From Candidatus Hydrogenedentota bacterium (GTDB lineage Bacteria > Hydrogenedentota > Hydrogenedentia > Hydrogenedentales > JAGMZX01), in contig JAKQEQ010000017.1 of the NCBI GenBank assembly GCA_029556545.1, forward strand, positions 202,699-266,698: 64,000 bases of DNA, read 5' to 3'. The notes under the pieces were generated by a model. That model was not told the origin of the DNA and did no database searches. It saw only the letters and a program-made list of their open reading frames with translations. Shown piece after piece: positions 847 through 7,008 of this stretch. Position 1 is the first letter of the stretch; every line of letters begins with the position of its first letter. The position numbers and the translations under genes were made by a program.

Positions 847-1959
847 ATGCCGCACAAGGAATTTGATCGGAACGCGTTGGAAATACGGCCGCTGGCGGAG
901 CGGGAGGACCGCGCGTTCATCGAGACGGACCATGTGAGCCCGGACGAGCAGCCGCAGCCCTTCTCGAAGGAGGCGCAGCGGGTCATCGACGAGGCGGTCG
1001 AACGGCTCCTCGCGGCGCGCGCGGCGGGGAAATCGCGCATGCTCGCGTTCGGCGCGCACGCAATCAAGAACGGACTCGCGCCGGTGTTCATCAAGCTGAT
1101 CGAGGACGGCTGGATCACGCACTTGGCCACGAACGGCGCGGGCGTCATCCACGACTGGGAATTCGCGTTCCAGGGTCACACGAGCGAGCACGTGGCGAAG
1201 AACGTGGCCGCGGGCCGCTTCGGCATCTGGGAGGAGACCGGCTACTACCTGAATCTCGCCCTAGTCGTCGGCGCGTATCGGGGTCTAGGCTACGGCGAGG
1301 CCGTCGGCGCGTTTGTCGATCAGGAAGGGCTCGATATCCCGGCCGAGGAGGCGTTGGTCGCCGAAATCCGCGAGAAGGCGGCGGATGCGCCGCTCGAGGC
1401 CGCCGCCGCGGCGGACCTGCTCCACGCCGTGCGCGCGTTTTCGCTGCGACCGGGCCGCATGGACGTGCCGCATCCGTACAAGCGCTTCGGATTGCAGGCG
1501 GCGGCGTACCGGCTCGGCGTGCCGTTCACCAGCCACCCGATGATCGGCCACGACATCATCTACACGCACCCGATGAACCACTGCGCCGCCATTGGCCGCG
1601 CGGCGCAACGCGACTTCCTCCTCTTCGCAAACAACGTCGCCAACCTCGACGGCGGCATCTACCTCAGCATCGGCAGCGCGGTCATGTCGCCCATGATCTT
1701 CGAGAAATCGCTGTCCATGAGCCAGAACCTCGCCATCCAACAGGGCAAGCACATCGACAACCACCTCATGGTCATCGTCGACCTCCAGGAGTCGCACTGG
1801 GACTGGATGCAAGGCGAGCCGCCCGACGACAATCCCGACTACTATCTGCGCTACTGCAAATCCTTCTCGCGCATGGGCGGCGCCATGCGCTACCTCAGCG
1901 CCGACAACAGGGATTTCCTCCTGGCGCTGGTGCGGGGGCTGGAGAACCGGATCGAGTGA
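847..1959 (+). CDS. Conserved protein of unknown function (possible DHS-like fold)
   Basis: This 370-residue protein has no signal peptide or membrane segment. It starts at an ATG at 847 with only a weak ribosome-binding site. Striking motifs are GAHAIKNGLAPV, THLATNGAGVIHDWEFAF, HDIIYTHPMNH, IYLSIGSAVMSP and DNHLMVIVDL. Alternating hydrophobic strands and Gly-rich turns suggest a Rossmann-type nucleotide-binding fold. The layout recalls proteins I have seen labelled deoxyhypusine-synthase-like, but I cannot confirm that and the canonical DHS active-site motifs are not evident. The last 28 codons recur twice downstream as fragments (4866-4949 and 6107-6179), so the 3' end of this gene is the apparent boundary of an accessory region. 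A catalytic role is plausible but unassigned. Confidence 0.65.
   Translation: MPHKEFDRNALEIRPLAEREDRAFIETDHVSPDEQPQPFSKEAQRVIDEAVERLLAARAAGKSRMLAFGAHAIKNGLAPVFIKLIEDGWITHLATNGAGVIHDWEFAFQGHTSEHVAKNVAAGRFGIWEETGYYLNLALVVGAYRGLGYGEAVGAFVDQEGLDIPAEEALVAEIREKAADAPLEAAAAADLLHAVRAFSLRPGRMDVPHPYKRFGLQAAAYRLGVPFTSHPMIGHDIIYTHPMNHCAAIGRAAQRDFLLFANNVANLDGGIYLSIGSAVMSPMIFEKSLSMSQNLAIQQGKHIDNHLMVIVDLQESHWDWMQGEPPDDNPDYYLRYCKSFSRMGGAMRYLSADNRDFLLALVRGLENRIE
1873..1956 (+). repeat. Gene-end repeat, copy 1 (within intact gene)
   Basis: These are the last 28 sense codons of the 370-residue gene (MGGAMRYLSADNRDF followed by LLALVRGLENRIE). It is the only copy attached to a full reading frame and so is taken as the parental sequence. 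It matches copy 2 at 75 of 84 positions counted by eye, and it shares a 28-base exact block with copy 3. Confidence 0.85.
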
Positions 1960-2070
1960 TATAACTTGCAGGAGTCTGTTGACTTGATGCAGTCTAACTC
2001 TCTTGCGGGAGAACAGTTTCTCGGCAGACTCTGAGGACACATAACGTCACAGCGGAAAGGGCGTAGACAC

Positions 2071-3123
2071 ATGCCAACGGCTAAGCCTGTAAATCTCCAA
2101 ATATCCGATATTATTGCTTGGTTCCGGGCGAAGGAGCTCGTAATCAATACGGATTTTCAAAGACACTCCGTTTGGACCCCCGCGGGGAGAACATTTCTTA
2201 TTGACACCATTCTGAACGAGCTTCCCATACCCAAGATCTACTTGCGCACCAAGATCGATCCGCACACACAAACAAGCATCAGAGAAATCGTGGATGGTCA
2301 GCAGCGAGTCCGAGCGATAGTCGATTTTGCCGATAGTAAACTGAAATTAACAAATAGGTCAGAGAAATTTCATGGCAAACAATACGAAGACCTTACCGAT
2401 GAGGAGAAGGAACGATTCTTGGGCTATATAATCACCGCTGAACAACTCCTGAATGCAACTGATGACGATGTCATAGACGTTTTTGCTCGCCTTAACTCCT
2501 ATACGGTTGCCCTCAATCCCGCCGAAAAACGCCATGCTGAGTTTCAGACAGAATTCAAGTTTGCCGTGAGACAGGCGAGTCAGAAATGGCGAGGGTTCAT
2601 CGAGAAGTATAACATTTTTACCACAAAGCAGCGGTTTCGCATGCTTGACGACACGCTGTTTGCGGAGATCTTTGGGGTGCTCTTGGAAGGCGTAAAAGAT
2701 GGGGGTGAAGCCAATATCAAGAGACTTTATCAAAGGCAAACTGACGACAAGTTCACAGAGTCCGTGGCAAAGTCTGCCAGAAGAAGATTGGACGCCGCGC
2801 TAACATACTTGGACTTGTCCCTGGGCGATGTGCTTAGAGGATCGCTCTCTCGACACTATCATATTCTTTTGCTTGTAGCCGCATACACACACCACAGGTT
2901 TGGAATACCTCGTGGCGATATTGAAGACGATTTGCCACGATCTAAGATTGCGAGCACAGATGTGATACTCGGTCGCCTCGGAGAACTGGAATCTGCCATC
3001 GAGTCACAACGCAGCCGAGGACGCTACGCCGATTTCGTCAAAGCTTCAGCCGAATCAACGCACCGAATTGTAACCAGGAAGGTGCGGTTTAGAGTACTCG
3101 TCGATATTATGGCCTGCGAGTAA
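2071..3123 (+). CDS. DUF262 domain protein (GmrSD/ParB-like N-terminal type)
   Basis: This 350-residue cytoplasmic protein has DUF262 hallmarks. These are an R..VW element near residues 31-35, the strand-turn LPIPKIYL near 51-58, the ParB-like signature DGQQR at 75-79, and FARLNSYTVALNPAE near 138-152. DUF262 domains occur in GmrS of the type IV restriction enzyme GmrSD and in many uncharacterised defence genes, where DGQQR is thought to act on nucleotides. The C-terminal half carries no recognisable HNH motif, so it is not a complete GmrSD fusion. Base composition is visibly more AT-rich than the flanking chromosome, suggesting recent acquisition. It sits 19 bp before a HEPN-like gene on the same strand, and the two look like one unit. 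Confidence 0.85.
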   Translation: MPTAKPVNLQISDIIAWFRAKELVINTDFQRHSVWTPAGRTFLIDTILNELPIPKIYLRTKIDPHTQTSIREIVDGQQRVRAIVDFADSKLKLTNRSEKFHGKQYEDLTDEEKERFLGYIITAEQLLNATDDDVIDVFARLNSYTVALNPAEKRHAEFQTEFKFAVRQASQKWRGFIEKYNIFTTKQRFRMLDDTLFAEIFGVLLEGVKDGGEANIKRLYQRQTDDKFTESVAKSARRRLDAALTYLDLSLGDVLRGSLSRHYHILLLVAAYTHHRFGIPRGDIEDDLPRSKIASTDVILGRLGELESAIESQRSRGRYADFVKASAESTHRIVTRKVRFRVLVDIMACE

Positions 3124-3142
3124 GGACGCGGAGTGACGCGGG

Positions 3143-3772
3143 GTGCATCTGCTACGATTTGTGCTGAAGTATGAGCGTGGTCTGGCAAGAATTGACCAAA
3201 TAGTACGGCAAGGAGCCGTTCTTCGAAGTGACTATCCTTGCCAATGCGCTGCATGTTTATCTCATGCGATCATAGCTTTACACGACCTCTGGGCCAATGC
3301 ATGTAGATCGATTGTCCTGACGTCGGCTGAGGGCCGCTGCATAACGCGTGGCGGCCGGCGCTTGGATAGACCTGAGATGCTAGATCCAAGGGAGAGTGCC
3401 ATTGGCTATCTCCGAAAACACTGGACACGGGCGGGGAAGTTAATGCCGCGCACTTGGGAACCAGAGTGGTACATTCCGAATGTCGCGATTCGCGCAGCCA
3501 CACTACTGAATGTTGGGAATCTCTCTGAAATCACGGATGGGCTTGGCGCTACTGTCTCGGCGGAGCCTTTGCGAGTCACTCGGAATGTCGTGGCGCATTC
3601 ATTGCCAAGTACATGGCTCCGGTTGCGCAGATTGCAAGAGCAACTTGGCATATCCGAATTGAGTCGCCCGGAGGTATTCGTTCTGTTACGTAGTGAACAC
3701 GGTGCAGGAACGCAGTTTCTCTATCTTTGGTCGTACGATCTGAAGAATGCACTAATGGCGGCTATAAGATAG
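3143..3772 (+). CDS. Putative HEPN-like protein, partner of DUF262 gene
   Basis: This 209-residue protein has no confident family match by eye. Residues 147-152 read RNVVAH, which fits the R-N-x3-H form of the HEPN ribonuclease signature. It lies in a helix-rich context with other conserved-looking features (CQCAACLSHA, WEPEWYIPNV). HEPN proteins next to DUF262 genes are known in defence loci. Here that partnership is inferred from adjacency (19 bp), shared strand and shared low GC. The start is a GTG at 3143 preceded by an AAGGA-containing stretch, and a second in-frame GTG lies at 3161. If the motif is real, the product would be an RNA-cleaving effector held in check by its partner. Confidence 0.55.
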   Translation: MHLLRFVLKYERGLARIDQIVRQGAVLRSDYPCQCAACLSHAIIALHDLWANACRSIVLTSAEGRCITRGGRRLDRPEMLDPRESAIGYLRKHWTRAGKLMPRTWEPEWYIPNVAIRAATLLNVGNLSEITDGLGATVSAEPLRVTRNVVAHSLPSTWLRLRRLQEQLGISELSRPEVFVLLRSEHGAGTQFLYLWSYDLKNALMAAIR

Positions 3773-3826
3773 GCGGTGCCTTGAAGAAGTCTGCATTGAA
3801 ATGGAGCCGGGTTCAGGAGTTACACT

Positions 3827-4093
3827 ATGAACGCTGCGCGCGTGCTGGAAAATGCCGATGTGCAGCTGCCCGCGGACATTGCCGAAAGACTGAGTGCTAA
3901 GCCGGGAGATATGCTGGCTGTGGAACCCCATGCAGACGGAACGGTGTGGCTGTATCCCGATGCGTTCGGCCGCGATGACGTGTTCGGTTGTTTCGCGTGC
4001 CGCACCACAGTAACGGCCATTGTCGAAGAAATGGATGAATCGATCGCTGATGCCTGCCAAAAGGATCAGATTCAAGATGGTGCTGGCTCTTGA
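3827..4093 (+). CDS. AbrB/MazE-type antitoxin-like protein, apparently orphan
   Basis: This 88-residue protein resembles the SpoVT-AbrB swapped-hairpin DNA-binding antitoxins. The N-terminal half reads VQLPADIAERLSAKPGDML and then VWLYPDA, matching the usual pattern of a strand, P.ei...l....Gd.l and a second strand. A good AGGAG precedes the ATG at 3827. In such loci a PIN toxin gene usually overlaps the antitoxin end. Here a 28-codon frame (4050-4136, beginning MPAKRIRFKMVLALD) starts inside the antitoxin but stops at once. It could be the stump of a lost toxin, though it is too short to prove. The protein may still autoregulate its own promoter. Confidence 0.65.
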   Translation: MNAARVLENADVQLPADIAERLSAKPGDMLAVEPHADGTVWLYPDAFGRDDVFGCFACRTTVTAIVEEMDESIADACQKDQIQDGAGS

Positions 4094-4228
4094 TCGCACG
4101 GCAGACCGACGGCGATTATTTCAGCCGGTGACGTAGCACGGGGGCACAGATACGCAATTTCTGTCCAAACAAGAAATCAGGTGCGAGTCTGATTCTCACC
4201 GTATGTAAATGAATGGCCGGCGCTGAGG

Positions 4229-4543
4229 ATGGAAGCGGTTCTGACGGATTGGATAGCCGAGCGGGTACGGAGGCACGAGTTCACAGGCTTCCAGCAGGCG
4301 GAGATCGAGCGCGGAAATGACGCCCTTTCCCTTTCGGATATCGAGTACGCGCTGCTTAATGGTAGAATTATTGAGTCTAATCCGGATACGGGGCGAGGCG
4401 TGTCCTGCCTCGTGTACGGCGAGACTCAGCGCGGAGCGGCCCACGTTGTTTGTGGGCGCAACAAGTATTCATGGTTGGTGATCGCGACCGTTTACATACC
4501 GGCGTGGCCAAAATGGAAAAGCCCGACCGAAAGGAACCGATAG
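4229..4543 (+). CDS. DUF4258 protein, likely toxin of an MqsRA-like pair
   Basis: This 104-residue protein has the DUF4258 pattern: an N-terminal helix with HEFTGFQQAEIERGN, then LSLSDIEYALLNGRIIESNPDTGRG, and a strand pair SCLVYGE and VVCG with the tail WLVIATVYIP. DUF4258 proteins are related in fold to RelE/MqsR-type mRNA interferases and typically sit next to a zinc-finger antitoxin, as here. The ATG at 4229 has GAGG immediately before it, so initiation may be weak or coupled. An inverted repeat AATCAG/CTGATT at 4175-4194 lies upstream and could be an operator. The C-terminal 31 bp overlap the antitoxin start. Confidence 0.75.
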   Translation: MEAVLTDWIAERVRRHEFTGFQQAEIERGNDALSLSDIEYALLNGRIIESNPDTGRGVSCLVYGETQRGAAHVVCGRNKYSWLVIATVYIPAWPKWKSPTERNR

Positions 4544-4779
4544 TGGAACCGTATGGTGATTGCATCTACTGCGGCGGCGAAGTCGTGGAGGAAGTGCGCA
4601 GCGTCGATTATCGAATTGAAGGACAGCTATACATCATCCAAAACGTTCCCGCCGGTGTGTGTCGGCAGTGCGGAGAAATGTTTTTTACCGCCGAAACCGC
4701 GCATCGTATGGAGGCCGCCGTAACACAGCCCGCAGGCCCCCTGAATACCGTGCCCGTGCCGGTTGTCGCCATAAAGTAG
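4513..4779 (+). CDS. MqsA/YgiT-type zinc-finger antitoxin
   Basis: This 88-residue protein contains the paired zinc-binding motif of the MqsA/YgiT N-terminal domain: CIYCGGEV, then about 30 residues later CRQCGEMFF. The VPAGVC step between them is typical. The chosen ATG at 4513 overlaps the end of the DUF4258 gene by 31 bp in another frame, a usual arrangement for this toxin-antitoxin class. A C-terminal helix-turn-helix such as full-length MqsA carries is absent, so DNA binding would rest on the short form (MEAAVTQPAG onward) or not occur. It probably neutralises the DUF4258 protein. Confidence 0.8.
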   Translation: MEKPDRKEPIVEPYGDCIYCGGEVVEEVRSVDYRIEGQLYIIQNVPAGVCRQCGEMFFTAETAHRMEAAVTQPAGPLNTVPVPVVAIK

Positions 4780-5090
4780 CCGCGATCCCCATGTTCGAGG
4801 GCATGGTCGCCCCGATGAAAACGACTATCGGTTTTCCAACCGCGTTCAACAAGGAATTTCACCACATGGGCGGCACCATGCGCTACCTCAGCGCCGACAA
4901 CCGTGATTTCCTGCCGGTGCTGGTGCGGGGGCTGGAGAACTGAATCGACAAAAGTGTGCATGGTTGCGTCTAAGAATGGGGTGTCGTTGTGCATCGAGCC
5001 CTCCCTGTTGTCGGGTTGGACTGATGCCGCGTGCGCCAGCGGAGCTGTGGATAGTAGGAAGGCCATCGAATTCTGTCTGGGAGAGAGACA
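4780..5090 (+). other. Gene-free stretch with the second gene-end repeat
   Basis: This stretch of about 310 bp lies between the antitoxin and the methyltransferase. Its main content is repeat copy 2 (4866-4949). The sequence just before the repeat, which translates in frame to FNKEFHHMGG, still shares the K-x-F-x-x-MGG spacing of the parental gene. Some upstream homology therefore survives. The rest (4950-5090) shows no gene or convincing promoter. Confidence 0.6.
4866..4949 (+). repeat. Gene-end repeat, copy 2 (fragment)
   Basis: This is a detached copy of the last 28 codons of the gene at 847-1959. By eye it matches copy 1 at 75 of 84 positions, including exact runs of 26 and 21 bases. It encodes MGGTMRYLSADNRDF then LPVLVRGLEN followed by TGA. 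No full-length gene is attached upstream. It lies about 2.99 kb from copy 1 and separates two groups of accessory genes. Confidence 0.85.
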
Positions 5091-5861
5091 ATGAGCGAAA
5101 AACCGTGGTATGAGGCCCTGTTTCAAGACTACGGGCGAACGTACGACAAAGAGCCCTTCACGCAAGGCACGCAGGGAGAATGCGATTTCATCGAGAAGGA
5201 ACTTCGGTTTGACAAGTCGCTGAGGCTCCTCGATGTCGGCTGTGGCACCGGAAGGCACTCAATCGAGTTGGCCAAACGCGGCTATCACGTCACAGGAATC
5301 GATCTGTCCGAATCGCAGCTTGCGAGAGCGCGTGAAAAGGCCACCGAACAACAGGTGAGCGTCGAATTCTTGCGGCATGATGCAAGGGCCCTGCCTTTTC
5401 ACGCCGAATTCGATGCGGTCATCATGCTTTGCGGAGGCGGTTTCCCGTTAATGGAAACGGACGAGATGAATTTCGAGATACTGAAGAACGCGACACGCTC
5501 CCTGAAAGGCGGCGGGAAATTGCTGTTTACCACGCTCAACGGGCTGTTCCCCTTGTACCATAATGTGGAGGCATTTTATGCCGAATCGAAACAGGAGGGC
5601 ACTAGCGTCTGCAGGAAGAACAGCTTTGACCTGATGACATTTCGTGATTTCAATATCGCGGAATTCGAAGACGACTCCGGGAACAAGAAGACCCTTTCCT
5701 GCAACCAGCGCTACTACGTGCCGAGTGAGATCACCTGGCTGCTGAAAACGCTCGGCTACGTCCGCATCGAAATCTTTGGCGCCAAGCTGGGCGCTTTCTC
5801 CAGAGACCATTCTCTGACCCCGGAGGATTTCGAGATGCTCGTGATTGGGCACAAGCATTGA
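5091..5861 (+). CDS. Class I SAM-dependent methyltransferase
   Basis: This 256-residue soluble enzyme has the Rossmann-fold methyltransferase motifs in order. Motif I is LLDVGCGTGRHSIELAKRG near residues 45-63. The acidic loop is VTGIDLSESQL, motif II is FLRHDARALPF, and a post-II strand reads FDAVIMLCGG. The C-terminal part (NQRYYVPSEITWLLKTLGY) is typical of the small-molecule Methyltransf_25/11 groups. The start ATG at 5091 follows GGGAGAGAGACA. The acceptor substrate is unknown. It lies between repeat copies 2 and 3, so it may be cargo of the same accessory patch. Confidence 0.9.
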   Translation: MSEKPWYEALFQDYGRTYDKEPFTQGTQGECDFIEKELRFDKSLRLLDVGCGTGRHSIELAKRGYHVTGIDLSESQLARAREKATEQQVSVEFLRHDARALPFHAEFDAVIMLCGGGFPLMETDEMNFEILKNATRSLKGGGKLLFTTLNGLFPLYHNVEAFYAESKQEGTSVCRKNSFDLMTFRDFNIAEFEDDSGNKKTLSCNQRYYVPSEITWLLKTLGYVRIEIFGAKLGAFSRDHSLTPEDFEMLVIGHKH

Positions 5862-5880
5862 CTCGGGATACAGGCCAGCC

Positions 5881-6096
5881 GGCACAAGCGTTGCCGTGCC
5901 GCTCGTGTAGTTCCCGAGGCTGTTCCACGGCACGGCGGAGGAACGCGCGCGCTGGCGCCTGATTGGCAAAGGCGAGGGGATTCATTGGGAACTCCTGGAC
6001 GAAGACATCAGTGCCGAGGGATTGCTCGCGGGCAGGCCATCCGGCGAAAGCCAGGCTTCGTTCCAGAAATGGCGCGAACAACGCGGAACGGAATGA
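5881..6096 (+). pseudogene. DUF2442 gene remnant with in-frame amber codon
   Basis: Reading from 5881 to the TGA at 6094-6096 gives a DUF2442-like C-terminus: GIHWELLDEDISAEGLLAG then RPSGESQASFQKW. Upstream in the same frame is SVAVPLV, a TAG at 5908-5910, and then FPRLFHGTAEERARWRL. DUF2442 proteins usually carry a tryptophan or similar residue between VPL and FPRL, so the stop looks like a TGG-to-TAG change. No start codon or N-terminal region is left. DUF2442 is normally the antitoxin-like partner of DUF4160, and no DUF4160 gene is present. This is a decayed toxin-antitoxin relic. Confidence 0.75.
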
Positions 6097-6106
6097 CCGC
6101 GTCGTT

Positions 6107-6179
6107 ATGCGGCGCCATGCGCTACCTCAGCGCCGAAAACGGGGAAATCCCGCCAGCGCCGGCGCGGGGCTGGAGAAAG
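6107..6179 (+). repeat. Gene-end repeat, copy 3 (degraded fragment)
   Basis: This is a third, more diverged copy of the end of the gene at 847-1959. A 28-base exact block (6109-6136) covers the MRYLSA codons, and a 12-base match covers the later GLE codons. A one-base deletion and several substitutions break the frame between them. It starts about 10 bp after the DUF2442 remnant. The three copies increase in divergence from left to right. Confidence 0.75.
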
Positions 6180-6266: not shown

Positions 6267-6548
6267 GTGTTAGCATCAGAGTCGTTGAGAGACAAGAGAG
6301 GTCGTGCGACTATGGCGCTCCCTTTTTCAGACATAGTCGAGCAGATTCGCCTGTTGGACGATGATTCCAAGCAGGCGCTTCTCGAGTTGTTGCATTCGTG
6401 GCTTCGGGAGGAACGTCGAGAACAGATCGCCCGGAATGCGAGGGAATCGCGTGAAAAGTACGCTTCCGGCAAGGCGCGCGGCGGCTCGCTCGACGATATG
6501 ATGACGGACCTGTATGCCGAAGATCGCGAGACTGACGTGGAGCGGTAG
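6267..6548 (+). CDS. Small helical antitoxin-like protein
   Basis: This 93-residue protein is almost wholly helical and charged (IVEQIRLLDDDSKQALLELL, LREERREQIARNARESREKY). Such proteins are typically antitoxins paired with RelE/YafQ or PIN toxins. A GGGGAGG at 6255-6261 precedes the GTG at 6267 at good spacing, and an in-frame ATG lies at 6312. Its 3' end overlaps by 35 bp a frame that begins like a RelE-family toxin but is broken (6514-6666). The antitoxin thus seems to have outlived its toxin. No exact family is assigned. Confidence 0.6.
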   Translation: MLASESLRDKRGRATMALPFSDIVEQIRLLDDDSKQALLELLHSWLREERREQIARNARESREKYASGKARGGSLDDMMTDLYAEDRETDVER

Positions 6549-6666: not shown

Positions 6667-6738
6667 TATTCTATTCTAGACGGGAGTAAACAGGGTCTAC
6701 TTGAGTTGACGATGATTGTTCTTGGGCGAGGTAATGAC

Positions 6739-7008
6739 ATGACTACGCGTGGGATGGTGATCACCTTCATTGTCTTGTTCATCCTATTGTTTGGAAGCAT
6801 TATTTCCTACCAACTGGAGATGCCCTATGACAACGCGCCTGCATCTCCTATTGAACGATGGCTTATCGTGTGCATTGTAGGTGGCCTGATTTCGGCCATT
6901 GGGGCTTGCTTCTTCACCGGAGCGATTGCTGCGGCTTTTGGAGCGTTTTCCGGGCCCGACATCGAAGGTCGAAGTTCGTCGGATTTGCCGCCCTTCGGCG
7001 GTGAATGA
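6739..7008 (+). CDS. Small two-pass membrane protein, unknown
   Basis: This 89-residue protein has two hydrophobic segments, VITFIVLFILLFGSIISY (residues 7-24) and WLIVCIVGGLISAIGACFF (about 41-59), and a Gly/Ala-rich stretch after the second. The ATG at 6739 is preceded by GAGG with seven bases between. Upstream in-frame TTG (6706) and ATG (6712) codons lack a ribosome-binding site. Local GC is lower than that of the chromosome on the right, so it may still belong to the accessory patch. No family is recognised. Confidence 0.5.
   Translation: MTTRGMVITFIVLFILLFGSIISYQLEMPYDNAPASPIERWLIVCIVGGLISAIGACFFTGAIAAAFGAFSGPDIEGRSSSDLPPFGGE

Follow-up and report, generated by a model that had tools for sequence, protein, structure and literature searches.

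Integron arrays are rows of tandem cassettes of one or two open reading frames (ORFs) in one orientation, with toxin-antitoxin genes among their cargo and a recombination site behind each gene. In staphylococci, the staphylococcal cassette chromosome (SCC) elements insert at the 3′ end of the conserved gene rlmH (orfX) and form tandem blocks divided by att copies, including blocks without a recombinase. Accretion of cis-mobilizable elements (CIMEs), integrative and mobilizable elements (IMEs) and integrative and conjugative elements (ICEs) at gene 3′ ends also yields tandem blocks, most of them missing an integrase, and follows a logic of regenerated and displaced gene ends (PMC5704250). The pdif modules of Acinetobacter are small toxin-antitoxin modules between short recombination sites served by a recombinase in trans; the sites are Xer dif-like, and such modules were first described on plasmids (PMC12907356). 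Here we analyse a stretch of 64,000 nucleotides from a Candidatus Hydrogenedentota bacterium (contig JAKQEQ010000017.1, positions 202,699 to 266,698; in what follows, the window), in which copies of the 3′ end of a GSU2086-family gene punctuate a patch of accessory genes. The window probably holds a small cassette array, docked by site-specific insertion at the 3′ end of that gene, whose units are mostly without an integrase of their own.

The layout functions as in an integron array, and its regenerated and displaced ends follow the logic of island accretion at gene ends. Of the integron traits, the array has the cassettes of one or two ORFs in tandem, each followed by a site, but the sites here are copies of the coding end of a protein gene, the recombinase is not IntI and the docking site is usually a regenerated host gene. 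Of the traits of CIMEs and tyrosine-integrase islands, the regenerated gene, the displaced end and the uninterrupted site in relatives are present, whereas the units are single genes or pairs, 0.2–2.9 kb long and recurring in different families; no transfer genes were found among the cassette ORFs examined, and no conjugation or replication genes were seen. SCC elements differ by their serine recombinases, large blocks and short repeats, and pdif sites are not copies of a gene end. Neither arrays of this kind nor integrons in Hydrogenedentota were described in the literature that we searched, with incomplete coverage.

The repeated gene end and its copies

The docking gene and its repeated end lie in the window as follows.

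847..1959, + strand: GSU2086-family (deoxyhypusine-synthase-like) docking gene, intact, 370 aa (NCBIfam NF052581, E 2.5e-97)
1869..1890, + strand: dyad GCGCATGG-GCGGCG-CCATGCGC, 8-bp arms and 6-bp spacer, proposed recombination core (dyad scan)
1873..1956, + strand: gene-end segment, repeated downstream (alignment to copies)
4866..4949, + strand: gene-end copy 2, putative displaced former gene end (76/84 identical; nhmmer E 1e-17)
6109..6178, + strand: gene-end copy 3, starting at the dyad spacer (59/69 identical, one gap; nhmmer E 7e-9)

The docking gene bears a weak likeness to deoxyhypusine synthase by profile match, and protein search of relatives finds the GSU2086-family gene kept in most of the phylum Hydrogenedentota. 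An initial annotation, made from the sequence alone, had seen by eye that the last 84 coding bases of this gene recur at 4866–4949 (75 of 84 identical) and again, with a 28-base exact block, at 6107–6179. Alignment bears out both copies with small corrections: copy 2 matches gene positions 1873–1956 at 76 of 84 bases without a gap, and copy 3, at 6109–6178, matches gene positions of about 1878–1947 at 59 of 69 bases with one gap, its first part being the exact block. Over the whole window and both strands, the two copies have local alignment scores of 68 and 46, against 17 for the next best match. A cross-species gene-end profile, built from the copies of all species including both window copies, recovers them at E 1e-17 and 7e-9, the best shuffled sequence reaching 9.6. 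In the 6.1-Mb genome the segment occurs at three places only, all at this one locus (E 1e-68, 1e-26 and 4e-14), the next match being one of 25 bases at E 0.005. A longer, decayed copy upstream of 4866, suspected by eye, was rejected, since its score of 20 is not significant against shuffles reaching up to 29.

The same docking recurs across the phylum. Genome labels are G000 for the window's genome, G001 for one of the same genus, and others for relatives within the phylum; the protein search took in 60 relatives and a C-terminus profile 68 genomes of the phylum, with DNA checks added. Gene-end copies were found in 14 of the 68 (G000, G001, G009, G015, G021, G027, G038, G047, G049, G053, G055, G056, G057 and G060), representing eight genera and four families, the weakest being those of G009 (E 3e-10), G001 (4e-10 and 2e-4) and G038 (2e-4). 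The repeated part is always the last 80–190 bases of the docking gene, and repeats of the remainder do not occur; in the protein search, apart from the intact gene and two genes that were split or truncated at a contig end, all extra matches fell within residues 303–369. Copies are spaced 0.2–2.9 kb apart, with four behind the gene in G021 and six in a row in G060. Of the loci retrieved, 87 extend 0.8 kb or more beyond the gene, and 14 of these entries (eight species, some represented twice) have a repeat of the locus's own gene, always of the 3′ end and none of them outside the phylum. As a control, a downstream repeat of the gene end was sought for 256 ORFs of at least 200 aa from the same loci; besides the docking gene, only antisense ORFs of the G060 array and a single 41-base match behind another gene showed one.

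Comparison downstream of the orthologues reveals uninterrupted sites in relatives, as well as cassettes present or absent at the copies, which supports the insertion at the gene 3′ end put forward in the initial annotation. In genus g35 the docking gene of G047 is unoccupied, with the stop codon followed by a terminator-like flank, and in G055 and G049 this same flank follows the last copy (125/151 and 143/165 identical over copy plus flank). The flank recurs at only one other place in the three g35 genomes, following a copy on another contig of G055. Since the last copy carries the gene's own terminator flank, the cassettes of this genus separate the gene from its terminator. In genus g14, the gene of G021 is followed by a DUF4177 ORF, and that of G015 by a 424-bp cassette, a copy and then the DUF4177 ORF (238/298). 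The window and G001 share 4870–6176 unbroken at 83% identity, and homology stops at 6176, the end of copy 3; before copy 2, G001 has a PIN/VapC-like ORF where the window has the genes from DUF262 to MqsA. This ORF resembles a PIN protein of G049 and is itself below the Pfam threshold; no GSU2086 gene was found in G001, whose contig begins 457 bases before copy 2. At no copy was the rest of the gene found upstream, and the intervening genes do not form in relatives a fixed neighbourhood devoid of gene-end copies. The integrative elements of the initial annotation hold as to insertion but not as to kind, the units being compact one- or two-gene cassettes and not large islands.

As a separate observation, two opposite-strand genes lie behind the unoccupied docking gene of G047 (locus L133, contig C123, 4903–7091); their products resemble a lysine 2,3-aminomutase-type EpmB and a lysyl-tRNA-synthetase-like EpmA.

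Proposed crossover point, recombinase and mechanism

The short copies share one 5′ boundary across independent loci. Averaged over 29 copies, identity between copy and host gene is near background (0.53–0.60) upstream of position −130 from the gene end, climbs slowly from there because some copies are longer, and then steps from 0.62 at −88 to 0.83 at −87 and 0.93 at −86. Copy 2 of the window begins inside the left arm of the dyad and copy 3 at its spacer. The dyad core, CGCAT-N10-ATGCG, is present in 9 of 11 species and is extended in the window to perfect 8-bp arms. It is encoded by a conserved R-M-G-G-x-M-R motif, and is therefore old and was not made for recombination. A short-copy boundary at this dyad would be as expected from crossover by a tyrosine recombinase.

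Recurrence, the common 5′ boundary of short copies, the uninterrupted sites, the change of content at the copies and the host-specific displaced ends are all seen directly in the sequences and together argue for the following mechanism. Circular cassettes, each with one or a few genes of mainly toxin-antitoxin or defence-like kind, would recombine at the 22-bp dyad near base −90, through a tyrosine recombinase presumably acting in trans. Each cassette would bring a new gene end and so keep the host gene intact, and the former end would be shifted downstream to become the copy behind the cassette; repeated insertions would then lead to arrays. Whose end is displaced can be judged from the DUF4258/MqsA cassette, which in each of five species has a copy behind it. 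When these species are compared in pairs, in 9 of 10 the copy is closer to its own host's gene (0.82–0.92) than to the other species' copy behind the same cassette (0.67–0.81), the exception being G021–G060 (0.87), and most copies across the set are nearest their own host's gene. This nearness to the host's own gene is most readily understood if the sequence past the core was once the end of the host gene and the present end came with the cassette.

All named cassette genes share the strand of the docking gene or copies, and some ORFs fit tightly between the sites. A cassette ORF of G055 overlaps the gene stop by 4 bases and ends 5 bp short of the copy, one in G015 has a 7-base overlap at its start, and one in G047 starts on the stop of a copy. 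Because cassette genes of some relatives start on the stop codon of the host gene, read-through expression may occur, and in some species translation might be coupled to that of the docking gene; the window's first cassette ORF starts 111 bases past the docking-gene stop.

The initial annotation had noted that no integrase is present, and indeed no PF00589 tyrosine recombinase was found on the window's 266-kb contig. In G047, a tyrosine recombinase gene adjoins the array; it starts 158 bp from f0, the first and longest of the copies, and is directed away from that copy, as an integron recombinase gene is divergent from its array beside the first site. The protein runs 387 aa to the contig end, with R and HxxR motifs by eye, and G049 retains only the first 31 codons of the gene beside f0. 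The stretch from recombinase to f0 is 90% identical between G047 and G049, and the cassettes behind f0 differ; by analogy, this arrangement is the layout of an integron platform. By its score, the G047 recombinase falls outside the integron integrases (48 bits against TIGR02249, cut-off 265). A scan for IntI gave none above cut-off in any of the 14 array genomes, although the control genomes gave no match either. An attC-like fold was sought in 25 copies, and the consensus fold has 4 pairs only, with a covariation term of −0.1; the copies are conserved as sequence, and attC-like folding is not supported. The arrays are not attC integrons. No close relative of the G047 recombinase was found in the other array genomes, the best being 36% identical (G053, G057), and most arrays are therefore either fossils or dependent on some other enzyme acting in trans. 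No viral contig was found to carry the integrase or the gene end. Separately, three tandem tyrosine recombinase genes, resembling a recombinase-in-trio, lie in the window's genome at contig C134, 148869–151334, with similar groups on G021 contig C114 and G056 contig C105.

Misfits and alternative explanations

Several observations weigh against docking of small cassettes as set out above. A recombinase beside the array is missing in the window and in most relatives. About 12 of the 29 copies reach further into the gene (to −189) than a crossover at the dyad would predict; they may stem from cassettes that share more sequence with the gene, though this is not a full account. Divergence is unordered along the longer arrays, and all data are metagenome-assembled genomes (MAGs), with no circle or live excision seen. 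Three arrays, moreover, do not lie directly behind an intact gene. That of G047 is on a different contig from the docking gene, and its flanks are too rearranged against G049 and G055 for a clean insertion at a site empty in either to be recognised. That of G060 (locus L242, contig C1120, 14706–18665) is inverted and 12 kb from the intact gene, and is preceded by genes that we take, by eye, to be mutL- and miaA-like; it holds six gene-end copies and cassettes that include DUF4258/MqsA, a membrane protein and two of DUF5615, and further copies lie on contigs C1102, C630 and C872. In G027 (locus L141, contig C131, 145–2911), a 762-aa ORF begins 8 bp behind a lone gene-end copy and is followed by a phage-type integrase remnant, 98.5% identical to another G027 integrase; a large ORF similar to this one precedes a weak copy in G038 (locus L148, 2096–4594, minus strand). 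These displacements may reflect secondary insertion, an inversion between the array and the gene end, or MAGs of mixed origin.

The alternative that survives best, and to which we give a real though less than even chance, is that the present cassettes are remnants of larger, integrase-bearing elements that inserted successively at the gene end by the same chemistry and then shed their integrase and most genes, as in CIME accretion. The truncated remnant in G049 of the G047 array-side integrase fits such decay, as does the first block of the window, 2.9 kb long with five genes. A regenerated gene with displaced ends is, moreover, a known island signature (PMC4383910, PMC5704250). On the other side, units of 0.2–0.9 kb that consist of one or two complete genes look unit-like and not like random remnants, the DUF4258/MqsA and 145-aa membrane protein units recur in different families, and ORF ends abut the copies. 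Derivation of the cassettes from larger elements with their own integrase is unproven.

A further explanation, though an unlikely one, is that the host's XerC/XerD recombine dif-like sites within the gene end, on the model put forward for pdif modules. Modules that carry toxin-antitoxin genes but no integrase would suit it, the best-scoring models for the G047 recombinase are of Xer type (far below cut-off), and the dyad arm (C/G)CGCAT presumably resembles the XerC arm of dif. Against it, a dedicated recombinase adjoins one array, that of G047; a dif consensus, sought in the window's genome with up to 3 mismatches, was not found, so that there was no site to set beside the dyad.

Tandem duplication of the gene followed by deletions, suggested by copies in direct orientation downstream of it, is highly improbable and was rejected, since whole-gene searches downstream at the 87 loci recover 3′ ends only, the short copies have one 5′ boundary in independent loci, and the flank order of uninterrupted sites fits insertion. 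Equally hard to credit is the main alternative named in the initial annotation, a dispersed repeat carrying the gene segment by chance: G060 has copies on several contigs, but the single locus in the window's genome led us to reject it there, in the three g35 genomes all copies are at the gene or in arrays, and copies resemble the host's own gene.

The arrays reveal a gene-acquisition hotspot common to an uncultured phylum, made up of compact cassettes of toxin-antitoxin and defence-like genes and formed by a way other than the known integron site; were the recombinase confirmed, this would be a second route to cassette arrays. More speculatively, and we think this doubtful, a tyrosine recombinase of Hydrogenedentota might run its own kind of cassette capture, with single-gene cassettes at sites from the coding end of one gene that is at once docking site, expression leader and regenerated product; such a system would do the work of an integron with neither attC nor IntI. 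With the recombinase confirmed, a gene end repeated behind its gene would be a simple marker to scan for in phyla thought to be without integrons.

Gene content of the cassettes

The remaining features of the window array are given below.

2071..3123, + strand: DUF262/GmrSD_N protein, 350 aa (Pfam PF03235, E 6e-21; PADLOC NsnA, E 8e-31)
3143..3772, + strand: 209-aa ORF, HEPN-like by motif only, Rx4H (RNVVAH; read by eye in translation)
3827..4093, + strand: AbrB-like (antitoxin-type) protein, 88 aa (TIGR01439, E 2e-4, below cut-off)
4229..4543, + strand: DUF4258 protein, likely toxin of a pair (PF14076, E 1e-11)
4519..4779, + strand: MqsA/YgiT-type zinc finger protein, likely antitoxin (TIGR03831 of NCBIfam, E 9e-12; Pfam, 6e-7)
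5091..5861, + strand: class I methyltransferase, 256 aa (PF13649, E 1.5e-22)
5940..6096, + strand: decayed small gene, kept as DNA in G001
6267..6548, + strand: antitoxin-like ORF of 93 aa, candidate for one more cassette (51% relative in G021, behind the last copy)

The gene content first assigned stands by Pfam for DUF262, DUF4258, MqsA and the methyltransferase, with a weak AbrB match (TIGR01439) for an antitoxin-type gene; the other two labels lack a Pfam match, the 209-aa ORF having none in Pfam or NCBIfam and the relic at 5940–6096, presumably DUF2442-like, none in Pfam. The start of the MqsA/YgiT-type gene is uncertain, its longest ORF beginning at 4450. Several of these genes have relatives at other docking sites. 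The AbrB-like protein has a 61% relative within the G021 array, the DUF4258/MqsA pair also lies behind the docking gene in G021, G053, G057 and G051 and in the G060 array, and the methyltransferase, shared with G001, is 81% identical in protein to one directly behind the docking gene in G038. Elsewhere the cassettes include HicA/HicB in G047, a VapB/VapC type in G049, DUF4177 in G021, DUF5615 PIN-like proteins beside the DUF4258/MqsA pair in G060, and a 145-aa membrane protein in both G021 and G047.

No gene-end copy is detectable behind the 93-aa ORF at 6267–6548; a remnant of its type lies between gene and copy in G009. Because this further cassette-like ORF lies beyond copy 3, the two successive insertions proposed in the initial annotation stand as a minimum only. 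Behind it, at 6706–7008, lies an ORF for a small membrane protein of 100 aa.

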